This document shows positions 370 to 36,530 of a stretch of 64,000 nucleotides of DNA, piece by piece. The stretch is from assembly GCA_023249675.1 (NCBI GenBank), contig JAHFCE010000007.1, positions 58,119 to 122,118 of the forward strand, read 5' to 3'. The DNA comes from Elusimicrobiota bacterium (lineage in GTDB: Bacteria > Elusimicrobiota > Elusimicrobia > UBA1565 > UBA9628). The notes under the pieces are model-generated. The model made no database searches, had not been told where the DNA came from, and worked only from the letters and a program-made list of their open reading frames with translations. Numbering within the stretch: the first letter of the stretch is position 1; every line of letters begins with the position of its first letter. A program made the translations under genes and the position numbers.

Positions 370-426
370 GCGCTTTTCGCGCGAGTTTTCCACTCCTGGG
401 GTGGGCACCGAACGAGATATCCACCA

Positions 427-444
427 ATCCGTCGCGCGACGGAT
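427..444. repeat. 18-bp perfect palindrome between ppdK and gap
   Basis: ATCCGTCGCGCGACGGAT equals its own reverse complement. It lies about 42 nt past the ppdK stop and about 105 nt before the gap start. No T-run follows on the minus strand, so it is not a standard terminator; an operator or a weak terminator stem is possible. Confidence 0.45.
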
Positions 445-485
445 CAGGGCATAAGTCCGCGATTTTCGGAGGAGCCTACAGGCGC

Positions 486-23408: not shown

Positions 23409-23844
23409 CGGCCGCCTCGTCCTTCATCCCCCACGCGAGCATCCCCGCCCCGATCGAGATGCACGAGTCCGCCACGTTGAACACGGGCCAGTGGTGGAGA
23501 TGCAGGAAATCCACGACGTAGCCGACCATCAGGCGGTCGTAGAGGTTTCCCACCGCCCCCGTCGTGACGAGGAGCGCCCCCCACTGCAGCCAAGGATCAT
23601 TCTTCGGCCAGCGGCGGCGCAGAACCTGCAGGACGATCACAAGGCCGATCGAGACGGCGGTCAGGACCTTGTTGGCCCCGCGCCCCAGGCCGAACGCGGC
23701 GCCCGTGTTCTCGACGTAGGTCAAATCGAAAAATGGCAGGAGCGGTATCGTCCCCACGGCCGCAAGCGAGGCCGCCGCCCAGAGCTTGGTCGCTCGGTCA
23801 AGCGCCAGCAGCGCGACTACAGCTGCCGCGCGCAGCGCCCGCAT
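23398..23844 (-). CDS. lspA: Lipoprotein signal peptidase (signal peptidase II)
   Basis: 148 residues from ATG 23844. The track start at 23952 lies inside ileS and is not needed. There are four membrane helices. Conserved boxes are LDRATKLWA, TYVENTGAAFGLG, TGAVGNLYDRLMVGYVVDFL and FNVADSCI; the two catalytic Asp are in the YVVDFL and NVADSC segments. It cleaves the signal peptide of prolipoproteins after lipidation. It overlaps the 3' end of ileS by 28 nt, the classical ileS-lspA pairing. Several predicted lipoproteins in this window would be clients. Confidence 0.96.
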   Translation of the reverse strand: MRALRAAAVVALLALDRATKLWAAASLAAVGTIPLLPFFDLTYVENTGAAFGLGRGANKVLTAVSIGLVIVLQVLRRRWPKNDPWLQWGALLVTTGAVGNLYDRLMVGYVVDFLHLHHWPVFNVADSCISIGAGMLAWGMKDEAAAKP

Positions 23845-26552
23845 AGCTCCGGGTAGGACTTGTTTGAACCGAGGTCGGTCTGCCAGCGCCAGCAACGCGG
23901 GCACTTGGCGCCTTCGGCGTGAACAACCGAGATCTCGCTTCCAGTCCCCCACTCCGCTTGGGAGACGATGAACAGCTCCTCGAGGTTGAGGCCTTTGAAC
24001 TGCGCGGAGTCGCCGGGCAGAATGACCTTGGCGTCAAGCGACTTGCCCACGAGCTTGGCCGTACGCGCTTCCTCGATCTTCTTGGTGACGTGCTCGCGCA
24101 GTTCAAGCGCCTTCGTCCAACGCTCGGCGAGCGCGGCGTTCGTCCAGCGCTCCTCGGGCGCCGGCAGGTCCCACAGGAACACGCTGTCGGACGGACGCGA
24201 CGGCCAGAAGCGCCAGGCCTCCTCCGCCGTGAAGGACAGGATTGGAGAGAGCAAAGCGCACAGCCGCGCGAATGTCTCCGCCATGACGGTCTGGGCCGCC
24301 AGGCGTTCCGGAGATTCCGGTTTGAACGTATAGAGACGATCCTTGGTCCCGTCGAGATAAAACGCCGAGAGATCGAACGCGCAGAAATCGACGAGTCGGC
24401 GCGCGGCGGCGCGGTAGCGATAAGCGCGATAATCCGCGAACGTCTCCGTCTGCACCGCGGCGAGGCGATGCAGCAGGTAACGCTCCATCTCGGGAAGCTT
24501 CTCGAAAGAAACCGCTTTCGAGGAATCAAAATCGCTCAGATTGCCGAGCAGGTAGCGCAGCGTGTTGCGCACCCGGAAGTAGGAATCCCCGGGACCGGCG
24601 AGAAGCTTGTCGGAGATGCGCACATCGTCGTTGTAATCGCACAGCGCCACCCAGAGGCGAAGAAGATCCGCGCCCCACTTTTCGATGACCGCCTGAGGCG
24701 CCACGACGTTGCCTGTCGACTTGTGCATGGCGCGGCCCTTCTCGTCGAGCACGAAGCCGTGCGTCAGCACCGCCCGGTAAGGAGCCTTGCCGCGCAAGGC
24801 CGTCGACATGACGAGCGAGCTTTGAAACCAGCCGCGGTGCTGGTCGGAGCCCTCGAGGTAAAGATCGGCGAGCGCGTCCTCGCCCAGCACCGAGAGCCAG
24901 GAGACGCCGGAGTCGAGCCAGACGTCGAGAATATCGGACTCGCGGCGGAAGCCGTCCTTCAACGCGGGATGATCGGGAAGGAAGGGCCAGTCGGCGGGTT
25001 TGAGAACCTCACCCCATTTCTCGAACCAGAAATCGGTCCCTTCGGCGGCCGCCTTCTTCTCGATCGCCTCAAGAACGGCGTCATCGAGGACGGCTTCGCC
25101 CGTCTTCACGGAATAAAGAACGGTGATCGGAGTGCCCCACACGCGCTGGCGCGAGAGGCACCAATCAGGGCGGTTTTGGACCATGGACGCGATGCGGTTG
25201 CGCCCCTCGGCCGGAACCCATTGGACCTTGTCGATCTGGGCCAACAGCCGCACGCGCAGGTCCTCGGACAACTTCAAGAACCATTGCTCGGTCGTGCGGA
25301 AGATGACGGGATTCTTGCAGCGCCAGCAATGCGGATACGAATGTTGGATGTCTTTCTTCGCGAGCAGAAGACCGCGTTCCAGGAGATCGGCCATGATCTC
25401 GGGATTACCCTCTTTGAAGATGTGCTTGCCCGTCCAGCGCGGGGCCTTGTCGGTGAACACGCCGGAGTGGTCGACGGGGTTTAAGATCTCCAAGCCGTGC
25501 TTGAGGCCGGTGTGGAAGTCGTCCTCGCCGTGGCCGGGAGCCGTATGAACGATGCCGGTGCCATCCTCAGCGGTGACGTAGTCGGCAAGCACCGCCACAG
25601 AATCGCGGCCTCCATACGGGGCTTCGCAGATCAGGCCTGCATCGACTATCTTCTGTCCTGTCCAGGTTGGTCCCTCAAAGCGATAGGGCTCATCGCCGAC
25701 CCTCGCGTTCTGCACGACTCGCTCAAGCCCCGAAGAAGTCGTGGCCAAAAATCTCCGTCCCCTGAGTTCGGCGACTTGGTAGCTCAGCAGCGGATTAAAA
25801 GCGACCGCCATGTTGGCCGGCAACGTCCACGGCGTCGTCGTCCAGATGACGACCTCCGCGCCCTCCAACTCCTTGATCCCCGACTTCTTGATGGGAAACG
25901 CCACATACACCGAGGGCGAGGTCTTGTCCTTGTACTCGACCTCGGCGTCGGCAAGTGCCGTCTCGCATGTCGGACACCACAGCACGGGCTTGAGGCCGCG
26001 ATAGACGTGACCTTTCTTGACCAGCAGGCGAAACGCGCGCAGAATTTTTGCCTCGTAGTCCTTGGCCATCGTCTTGTACGGGCGCTCCCAGTCGCCGAGC
26101 ACGCCCAGGCGCTTGAACTCCCCGCGCTGGAGGCCGATGAAGCGCTCGGCGAAGGCGGCGGCGTCCTTGCGGAACTTGGAAATGTCGGTGACCCCGCGCT
26201 TGCTCATCTTCATTTCTTTGAGCAAGGCGGTCTCGATGGGCAGGCCGTGGCAGTCCCAGCCGGGAACATAGGGCGCCGCATGGCCCATCAAAGCGCGCGC
26301 CTTCACGGTCATGTCCTTAAGGATTTTGTTCAGCGCGTGGCCGATGTGGATGCTGCCGTTCGCATAGGGCGGACCGTCGTGCAGGACGAAGGGAGTGCGG
26401 CCTTTCTGGCGCTCCTGCAGCTTCTGATAAAGCCGGTCTTTCTCCCAGACCTTCAGGAGCTCGGGCTCGCGCTTGGCCAGGTCCCCTCTCATGGGGAAAT
26501 CGGTCTTGGGCAAGTGGATGGTCGCCGACCAGTCGGTGCGAGCTTCGGGCAT
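23817..26552 (-). CDS. ileS: Isoleucyl-tRNA synthetase
   Basis: 911 residues from ATG 26552. I chose this over upstream in-frame starts because TGGTAGGAT sits 7 nt before it. The HIGH motif is in PYANGSIHIGHALNK, the editing domain has GWDCHGLPIE and WTTTPWTLPANMA, and DVWLDSGVSW precedes the second signature. The KMSKS loop is unusual: GRAMHKSTGN. The C-terminal zinc finger has CPRCWRW and CGRC. It charges tRNA-Ile and edits valine. It is the bacterial zinc-containing form. The downstream lspA overlaps it. Upstream lies the DnaA-box inverted repeat, about 70 bp from the -10 box. Confidence 0.97.
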   Translation of the reverse strand: MPEARTDWSATIHLPKTDFPMRGDLAKREPELLKVWEKDRLYQKLQERQKGRTPFVLHDGPPYANGSIHIGHALNKILKDMTVKARALMGHAAPYVPGWDCHGLPIETALLKEMKMSKRGVTDISKFRKDAAAFAERFIGLQRGEFKRLGVLGDWERPYKTMAKDYEAKILRAFRLLVKKGHVYRGLKPVLWCPTCETALADAEVEYKDKTSPSVYVAFPIKKSGIKELEGAEVVIWTTTPWTLPANMAVAFNPLLSYQVAELRGRRFLATTSSGLERVVQNARVGDEPYRFEGPTWTGQKIVDAGLICEAPYGGRDSVAVLADYVTAEDGTGIVHTAPGHGEDDFHTGLKHGLEILNPVDHSGVFTDKAPRWTGKHIFKEGNPEIMADLLERGLLLAKKDIQHSYPHCWRCKNPVIFRTTEQWFLKLSEDLRVRLLAQIDKVQWVPAEGRNRIASMVQNRPDWCLSRQRVWGTPITVLYSVKTGEAVLDDAVLEAIEKKAAAEGTDFWFEKWGEVLKPADWPFLPDHPALKDGFRRESDILDVWLDSGVSWLSVLGEDALADLYLEGSDQHRGWFQSSLVMSTALRGKAPYRAVLTHGFVLDEKGRAMHKSTGNVVAPQAVIEKWGADLLRLWVALCDYNDDVRISDKLLAGPGDSYFRVRNTLRYLLGNLSDFDSSKAVSFEKLPEMERYLLHRLAAVQTETFADYRAYRYRAAARRLVDFCAFDLSAFYLDGTKDRLYTFKPESPERLAAQTVMAETFARLCALLSPILSFTAEEAWRFWPSRPSDSVFLWDLPAPEERWTNAALAERWTKALELREHVTKKIEEARTAKLVGKSLDAKVILPGDSAQFKGLNLEELFIVSQAEWGTGSEISVVHAEGAKCPRCWRWQTDLGSNKSYPELCGRCARQL

Positions 26553-26559
26553 GAGCCTC

Positions 26560-26568
26560 ATCCTACCA
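26560..26568 (-). promoter_or_regulatory. Extended -10 (TGGTAGGAT), leaderless start of ileS
   Basis: On the minus strand TGG-TAGGAT is followed by GAGGCTC (7 nt) and ATG at 26552. A GAGG in the spacer might also act as a weak ribosome-binding site if transcription starts earlier. Confidence 0.5.
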
Positions 26569-26631
26569 ATTCCAAGTTCTTCCCGGAATAGCATCCCTAC
26601 GACACGTGCAACGACTATCGTGTTCCCAAAT

Positions 26632-26750
26632 AGTTATCCACAAACTTGGCACGTACCAAGTTGACTCACCCGAAATCTTTCATTGGCGCAACCTAAAGAC
26701 CCCATCATCAAGCGCGTGGAACTCGGCCTGGGCCGAGTTTGTGGATAACT
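26632..26750. repeat. 119-bp inverted-repeat element with two DnaA boxes and two hairpins
   Basis: The left end reads AGTTATCCACAAACTTGG, continuing CACGTACCAAGTT. The right end, on the minus strand, reads AGTTATCCACAAACTCGG, continuing CCCAGGCCGAGTT. Each end is a perfect DnaA box TTATCCACA (26634-26642 plus; 26740-26748 minus). A palindrome built from the same bases follows each box. The palindrome stems differ by a compensatory T-A to C-G change. It lies in the 231-nt space between the HEFVH gene and the ileS promoter. It could be a DnaA-responsive site, a replication-related site, or a REPIN/MITE-like mobile repeat. No target-site duplication is evident. Confidence 0.7.
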
Positions 26751-26783: not shown

Positions 26784-27614
26784 TCACCAGTTTAGATACT
26801 CGTGCGCGTCGGCGTCATCCCAGCCCTCAAAAGTCCCATGGGGTTCTACTATGTGTTCCATAAAAAATGACTTTTCCCACTGCTTGTTGTGCACGAATTC
26901 ATGCTCGTATCCCCCACGGCTGTCTTCAGGCCGCGGATAATCTGTGAAAACTGTATGCCAACTCGGAGCTATGCCAACTGCCCATGTCCCCATAATTCCC
27001 GCCACAGGTCCCCCGCTAAAGATGAGACGGTTATTGGCATACATGAAGTCGGTGTGCTCATCGGAATTGATCGCGTTCCACACCGGGGCCGCGGCGCAGT
27101 TAAGAAGACCGACCGTGGTCATAAGGGCGTCTTGCGCGACGTTTTTAACCGTGCGTAGAGGATCCAAGATAGCCAGCGGGTCGCCATTGGCGAGGCCTTT
27201 GGCCATTCTGACAGGCGTCAGCGCCACGGCCTGGATCGTCTCCAGGGCAAAGGCGATCGGCGCGAGGAGCAGACCGAAAAGTCCACCGAGCAGGCCGTGA
27301 AGATAGCCCGGCCTTTGCTCCCAAGTGACGGGGCCGATGCCGGTGGGTTTTTCATGATATGTGGGCGCTCCGCCTGGACCAAAAATATGAGGGAGCGCGC
27401 CGAGGGTCTTCTTAAGGGCGAGCGTTGCGCTAAAACCGGAGGAGTGCCGGACTGGCGCATTGACCACGAAGCCCCCCGCGTTGACCGTCGAGTTATTGGC
27501 GGCGACGTTGTCGAAAGGCATGGCGGCGTCAAGCCAGGCCGATTCCAGGGGTGCTCCCGCCGCGGGCAGAACGGCGAGAGCCAGGCTTAAAATTCCTCCG
27601 ATAATTTTCCGCAT
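26784..27614 (-). CDS. Exported protein with HExxH-like motif
   Basis: 276 residues. The signal peptide is MRKIIGGILSLALAVLPAAG. Two hydrophobic stretches near 115-135 and 205-222 may be membrane-associated. The C-terminal part has YEHEFVHNKQWEKSFFMEH, an HExxH plus downstream His/Glu arrangement reminiscent of small zinc-metallopeptidase-like proteins with HExxHxxQ, but the third ligand cannot be assigned. I do not recognise the family. A TACACT -10 box lies 7 nt before the ATG, so it is probably leaderless. It diverges from the 27713 gene and ends about 34 nt before the DnaA-box element. Confidence 0.75.
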   Translation of the reverse strand: MRKIIGGILSLALAVLPAAGAPLESAWLDAAMPFDNVAANNSTVNAGGFVVNAPVRHSSGFSATLALKKTLGALPHIFGPGGAPTYHEKPTGIGPVTWEQRPGYLHGLLGGLFGLLLAPIAFALETIQAVALTPVRMAKGLANGDPLAILDPLRTVKNVAQDALMTTVGLLNCAAAPVWNAINSDEHTDFMYANNRLIFSGGPVAGIMGTWAVGIAPSWHTVFTDYPRPEDSRGGYEHEFVHNKQWEKSFFMEHIVEPHGTFEGWDDADAHEYLNW

Positions 27615-36495: not shown

Positions 36496-36530
36496 CCACC
36501 AACTGTTTCCGGAAACAGTTTCAGCGGTGG
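36496..36530. terminator. Palindromic bidirectional terminator-like hairpin
   Basis: AACTGTTTCCGGAAACAGTT is a 20-bp perfect palindrome flanked by CCACC and GGTGG. It separates two convergent genes and can fold on either strand. No strong T-run follows, so a factor-dependent terminator or a REP-like repeat is also possible. Confidence 0.55.

Follow-up and report, generated by a model that had tools for sequence, protein, structure and literature searches.

Positions 26632 to 26750 of a 64,000-nucleotide stretch of an Elusimicrobiota genome (the whole of which we call the window) hold a 119-bp inverted element in which two perfect DnaA boxes face each other, next to the isoleucyl-tRNA synthetase gene ileS. 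A preliminary description, made from the sequence alone, had offered three identities for it: a DnaA-titration or replication-control site, a DnaA-regulated ileS promoter, or a mobile repeat of the REPIN/MITE type. The question is therefore which of these the element is and, if it is a repeat, what could have spread it.

Architecture and surroundings of the window element

The coordinates, a repeat search, and folding all bear out the element as it had been described, with perfect DnaA boxes and compensated stems. It is made of two facing 30-nt units, each consisting of GTTATCCACA, a perfect DnaA box, followed by a 20-nt palindrome (Table 1). The repeat search delimits inverted arms of 31 nt (26632-26662 and 26720-26750) that are 81% complementary, with 57 nt in between. 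The left stem is AACTTGG(CACGTA)CCAAGTT and the right stem is AACTCGGCC(TG)GGCCGAGTT, and the difference between them, T-A to C-G, is compensated on both arms. With up to one mismatch, the 11-mer AGTTATCCACA is found in the 64 kb only at these two arms (expected number, 0.18), and two such occurrences were seen in none of 100 shuffled sequences. As single-stranded DNA, the 119 nt fold better than 200 of 200 shuffles on either strand (z of -4.0 and -4.8), and an Rfam search returned nothing above chance. The stem ATCCGTCGCGCGACGGAT, at 416-445 of the window, represents a second stem subfamily of the same genome.

Table 1 Coordinates of the features discussed (window positions, unless a genome and contig are given)
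Feature	Position	Strand	Basis
Left REP unit: foot GTTATCCACA and 20-nt palindrome AACTTGGCACGTACCAAGTT	26633..26662	+	cmsearch with family model R1: 44.5 bits, E 2.6e-9
Right REP unit: foot GTTATCCACA and 20-nt palindrome AACTCGGCCCAGGCCGAGTT	26720..26749	-	cmsearch with R1: 47.3 bits, E 5.3e-10
Left foot, perfect DnaA box TTATCCACA	26634..26642	+	Sequence; identical 9-mer adjoins the host dnaA gene
Right foot, perfect DnaA box TTATCCACA	26740..26748	-	Sequence
57-nt interior between the hairpins	26663..26719	.	blastn: unrepeated elsewhere in own genome
ileS (isoleucyl-tRNA synthetase), neighbor, outside the element	23817..26594	-	ORF translation; present in 19 of 19 genomes of the genus
276-aa ORF, function unassigned, other flank	26784..27614	-	ORF translation; not adjoining ileS in relatives
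Degenerate further copy, stem subfamily ATCCGTCGCGCGACGGAT	416..445	+	R1: 24.4 bits, E 2.6e-4; stem also at G000:C37, C53, C6
Loop-less 20-nt palindrome AACTGTTTCCGGAAACAGTT, degenerate foot (CCACC), possible decayed copy	36501..36520	.	R1: 21.3 bits; palindrome scan
Second protein with DnaA-type AAA+ domain (PF00308)	G000:C37:44931-45410; G010:C1:266038; G013:C10:95004; G054:C79:46312		

The element is flanked on one side by the start of ileS (first ATG at 26594, minus strand) and on the other by the stop codon of the 276-aa ORF. It occupies 38 to 156 bp upstream of that ATG, a position that would suit the DnaA-regulated promoter or operator of ileS that had been proposed. However, the region upstream of ileS lacks the element in all 18 of the other same-genus genomes and has a different neighbor there, not the 276-aa ORF, no promoter-like site was matched at the window element, and the same element adjoins many unrelated genes. 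The promoter reading is thus largely refuted by non-conservation, and we regard it as extremely improbable.

Neither does the window correspond to a replication origin. In this 2.6-Mb draft genome of 54 contigs, dnaA and its adjoining DnaA boxes are on contig C25 and not on the contig of the window, which is therefore not oriC. Apart from dnaA, another protein bearing a DnaA-type AAA+ domain was observed, in open frames of 572 to 937 aa (Table 1). In the sole complete genome, that of G010 (same genus, a single contig of 3,802,950 bases), the dnaA frame (L316) is 394 aa long, and its end consists of out-of-frame residues in place of domain IV, probably because of a sequencing frameshift.

A dispersed family of palindromes with a DnaA-box foot

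A blastn search of the own genome with a 191-nt query recovered copies on contigs C5, C13, C16, C17, and C53, besides the window, and these other convincing matches span the REP arms only. The pattern GTTATCCACA occurs 12 times in this genome (reversed control, 0), and the covariance model R1, built from 39 distinct units aligned without gaps, likewise gives 12 matches. With one mismatch allowed, GTTATCCACAAACT is present in 19 of the 44 genomes of the taxonomic family, with reversed controls near zero, while R1 has matches in 22 of the 56 genomes of the order at an E of ≤0.01. When 196 genomes were drawn from the whole class (E of ≤0.001), matches were found in 18 genomes, every one of them within that order. 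We also scanned public genomes with the pattern TTATCCACA-N20-TGTGGATAA, which gave at least 118 stretches, of which 80 were read. Among the matches listed, four Elusimicrobiota genomes have 20-nt spacers that pair at 9 or 10 of 10 positions (L183, L191, L196/L224, and L212), and most of the other spacers, from Streptomyces, SAR86, Halomonas, and others, are non-palindromic; the exceptions in the same set are Clostridium tyrobutyricum (L237, 9 pairs), which is the main one, and Dictyobacter (L254, 8 of 10 pairs). The scan also placed the same element on the Elusimicrobiota chromosome CP096137.1.

Judged by their sequence, these sites make up a hitherto undescribed palindrome family, short and dispersed, in one Elusimicrobiota order, and its constant end is formed by a perfect DnaA box. 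A search of the available literature found no paper linking Elusimicrobiota with repetitive extragenic palindromes. The blastn copies and the R1 matches across the order bear out a REPIN-like repeat, so that of the original options the repeat has stood and the ileS promoter has not. Copy number is around 5 to 30 per genome, which is low compared with classical REPs, with few copies in complete G010. Around 50 copies were read in total. Thirty-eight of 41 further sites checked are intergenic; copies lie mostly between tandem genes, often 10 to 40 nt from gene ends, and divergent intergenic positions occur too.

The family comes in several forms: a single foot with its hairpin, a 40-nt double foot, inverted pairs of around 105 to 120 bp, and BIME-like arrays, in which several 20-nt palindromes stand between two feet (L365-L369). 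Inverted pairs or arrays were seen in the window, on C53 (a pair), and in G053 (both pairs and arrays). In all 39 aligned units, the palindrome is 20 nt long and the foot is TTATCC-C, although 19-nt versions are also present in G020 and slightly shorter ones in G026 and G032. Pairing holds in 95.2% of the cells, against 75.8% in shuffles and 28 to 43% when the alignment is slid, and 69 cells are double changed, against 24.7. The covariation score is 0.577, compared with 0.200 in shuffles and 0.05 to 0.15 in slid versions. Because pairing or palindromy was part of how the units were picked, most weight goes to the slid controls and to how varied the pair types are. A comparison of foot constraint via partner feet was set aside, because some of its loci had been chosen for having a perfect second box.

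The DnaA-box foot is constant, while each lineage has its own covarying stem cores, with AACATACGGTACCGTATGTT in G040, AACTCTTCGCGCGAAGAGTT in G053, AACTTGCCCCGGGGCAAGTT in G054, and AAAACTTCCCGGGAAGTTTT in G020. Within a single genome, identical stems recur at several sites (G040, G053, and G054), and the presence of one core at unrelated loci points to amplification. Certain positions are occupied in more than one genome (neighboring genes were named from reading translations). The site beside nth is common to G000, G003, G007, G008, G010, and G016, with stems that differ and are compensated, the SDR/fabH gap is occupied in both G000 and G021, which belong to different genera, and the same applies to rlmN in G003 and G006 and to uvrA in G053 and G055.

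Of the 21 perfect DnaA boxes of the own genome, 9 are found in these elements. G020 has around 63 perfect TTATCCACA sites, against 7 for the reversed control, many of which form palindromes of 37 to 38 nt with the core AAAACTTCCCGGGAAGTTTT, including around 25 near-identical copies (contigs L440-L459). In G013, a fixed 60-bp element composed of TTATCCACA, variable arms, the core AGTGTTGTCGACAACACT, and TGTGGATAA has around ten copies, on C6, C9, C14, C15, C18, C20, and C23 (L295 and L420-L427), and pairing of its arms is somewhat better inside a copy than across copies (permutation P value of 0.015).

Candidate transposase partners

Two Y1-transposase homologs were detected in the own genome, RAYT-A on C14 and RAYT-B on C6. 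RAYT-A belongs to a multicopy family with its own inverted GGTGTCAGGCC-type terminal repeats, and a flanking DnaA-box pair was found at none of the 60 RAYT loci read. For both reasons, we rejected the idea that the palindromes are the repeats of RAYT-A. The RAYT-A loci L087-L126 carry TIRYT-like transposase genes, with 11 matches in the complete genome of G010, and the RAYT-A N terminus, MQLFxGVNRM, resembles the start of a gene adjoining nth. The GGTGTCAGGCC-type repeats that flank RAYT-A in these genomes resemble the GGGGWSAS ends of TIRYTs and TIRtrons (PMC3733652), whose element ends are the repeats flanking the transposase gene. However, the RAYT-A ends lack a DnaA box, the window element does not match them, and no inverted DnaA-box pair is present at RAYT-A genes. 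The paper on GTAG/CGTC repeats and TIRYTs does not mention DnaA (PMC3733652).

RAYT-B is a vertically inherited Y1/HUH transposase homolog. It was found in 17 of the 19 genera of the order at an E of ≤1e-25, with some distant matches in the count, and it is syntenic across several genera and positionally stable. A Y1_Tnp match is present in 13 of 17 orthologs, consistent with a Y1/RAYT fold, and the AlphaFold model (pLDDT of 84.9) has as its top Foldseek match 4er8, a RAYT bound to a REP hairpin (E of 2.7e-6). As for the HUH motif and catalytic tyrosine that characterize TnpA_REP, the first HUH histidine is missing in all the RAYT-B orthologs displayed, and the tyrosine is kept in many but not all of them. 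At the C terminus, Pfam Bac_DnaA_C was detected in 16 of 17 orthologs (best E of 4.9e-6), with the own copy below the curated cutoff, and Foldseek superimposes this part of the model on 3pvp, the DNA-binding domain of Mycobacterium tuberculosis DnaA on a DnaA box, over 72 columns with an rmsd of 1.2 Å. An hhalign comparison with three host DnaA sequences was weak (probability of 5.8%, E of 0.0065), so the assignment of a DnaA domain is based on Pfam and Foldseek. The DHT residues through which DnaA contacts the bases are not retained in RAYT-B.

In G039, RAYT-B (L357, 808-1701) has double-foot copies on both sides, GTTATCCACCGACATCTCTTAAGAGATGTCGGTGGATAAC around 300 bp upstream and GTTATCCACCAACCTATCTTAAGATAGCGTGTGGATAAC around 60 bp downstream. 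Such two-sided flanking was seen in G039 only; R1 gave no strong matches at the other RAYT-B loci tested, and at the own locus there is one degenerate copy around 650 bp away. Loop-less palindromes (arms of ≥10 bp) are enriched near RAYT-B, where 113 kb contain 10 of them, whereas 319 kb of control loci contain 2 (P value of 6e-5, or 6e-4 when de-duplicated). In tables tallied by hand that ignore phylogeny, the figures for co-occurrence of RAYT-B and the element are 12/23 versus 1/13 for the more complete genomes (P value of 0.011) and 17/32 versus 5/24 for all genomes (P value of 0.026), a co-occurrence that is suggestive only. G007, which is 91% complete, has copies and lacks RAYT-B. Since the first HUH histidine is missing and the position is stable, RAYT-B alone cannot explain current movement. 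Our best guess, weaker than the description of the family itself, is that the RAYT-B lineage is the partner, with a DnaA domain IV-like C terminus that could read a box-like foot.

Alternative explanations and relation to known systems

Several other explanations can be proposed for a family of this kind. The location of most copies between tandem genes, close to gene ends, and the stable hairpins would be expected of RNA-level signals, either terminators or 3'-end stabilizers of mRNA; however, there is no terminator-like site at the window element, divergent positions occur, and termination needs neither a constant DnaA-box foot nor loop-less DNA palindromes, so we find this quite unlikely. 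Inverted ends of around 30 bp and length classes of 40, 60, and around 120 bp could also describe a conventional MITE of a DDE-type insertion sequence, with a DnaA box in its terminal inverted repeats by chance. MITEs have a conserved interior and a target-site duplication, but here the interior is not common to the copies and no duplication is visible at the window copy, where it was looked for; in addition, single-ended copies are common and no transposase gene with such ends was met, and a MITE therefore seems very unlikely.

The main rival is that the host maintains these palindromes as DnaA-binding sites, for titration, replication timing, or DnaA-controlled regulation, in which case paired boxes at a fixed spacing would be selected for cooperative DnaA binding and no parasitic spread would be involved. 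The feet are identical to the boxes beside dnaA, the elements hold many of the perfect boxes (as counted above for the own genome and G020), orthologous positions are retained at nth in six species and at SDR/fabH in two genera, and in the G013 element the boxes and core have a constant spacing even though the arms are variable. On the other hand, the distribution is patchy (34 of the 56 genomes of the order are without the element at an E of ≤0.01), the cores are lineage specific and copies have been amplified within genomes, DnaA binding needs no palindrome between boxes, and the window site is not conserved. Known loci of this type, datA and DARS of Escherichia coli, are single-copy DnaA-titration and reactivation loci with several boxes and accessory sites; they resemble the palindromes in being chromosomal DnaA boxes outside the origin, but the palindromes are many and short, with one or two boxes each. 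We consider maintenance by the host a serious possibility, though less likely than not, and it is compatible with a REP/REPIN reading rather than mutually exclusive with it. Host DnaA is expected, from the sequence of the feet, to bind them as well.

We think it probable, without being confident, that the element is a REPIN in a REP/REPIN/BIME-like family with a DnaA-box foot, spread by a Y1/HUH enzyme for which the RAYT-B lineage is the candidate. Like the REPs, REPINs, and BIMEs of E. coli, Pseudomonas, and Stenotrophomonas, the family is built on a short hairpin whose foot is conserved, occurs singly, as inverted pairs, and in arrays, and has multiple dispersed intergenic copies with lineage-specific stems. 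It differs in its low copy number and in the absence of a consistently adjoining RAYT gene, and because the foot is the DnaA box GTTATCCACA and not GTAG or GTGG, we file it as a REP-like variant and not as a canonical REP. The copies may be mobile, or may have been so: by analogy with TnpA_REP (PMC8266576), they would spread, or would once have spread, in the form of single-stranded hairpins that become exposed at replication forks and are the substrate of a Y1/HUH transposase from the TnpA_REP (RAYT) superfamily. The partner would be the RAYT-B lineage, in which a C-terminal domain with the DnaA domain IV fold may read the box-like foot. RAYT-B would later have lost the first HUH histidine, and, given that loss, the present-day protein may bind the copies and no longer move them.

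In its domain makeup, RAYT-B, a Y1_Tnp homolog with a Bac_DnaA_C-like C-terminal domain, can be likened to TnpA_REP subclass 2.1 (RAYT group 1), specifically to subclass 2.1.2, from which it differs in lacking the first HUH histidine (PMC6006769). Quentin et al. described in 2018 a DnaA-like domain in subclass 2.1, which is one large subclass; they found no REP-like sequences for it, judged the flanking repeats to be unlike DnaA boxes, and left open what the domain recognizes (PMC6006769). More speculatively, and we hold this to be rather doubtful, an HUH-transposase lineage might have gained a reader resembling DnaA domain IV and taken DnaA boxes for its REP feet, so that the spread of the repeat became coupled to replication initiation, and its vertically inherited descendant RAYT-B might now be a host DNA-binding protein that shares a scattered network of DnaA-box palindromes with DnaA and influences replication or chromosome organization.

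Palindromes with a DnaA-box foot thus occur in genomes that carry DnaA-domain TnpA_REP-like proteins, and once they bracket the gene itself, which makes the question of what the domain recognizes directly testable. A repeat family of this kind can also load a chromosome with DnaA sites, as in G020, with possible effects on replication control.
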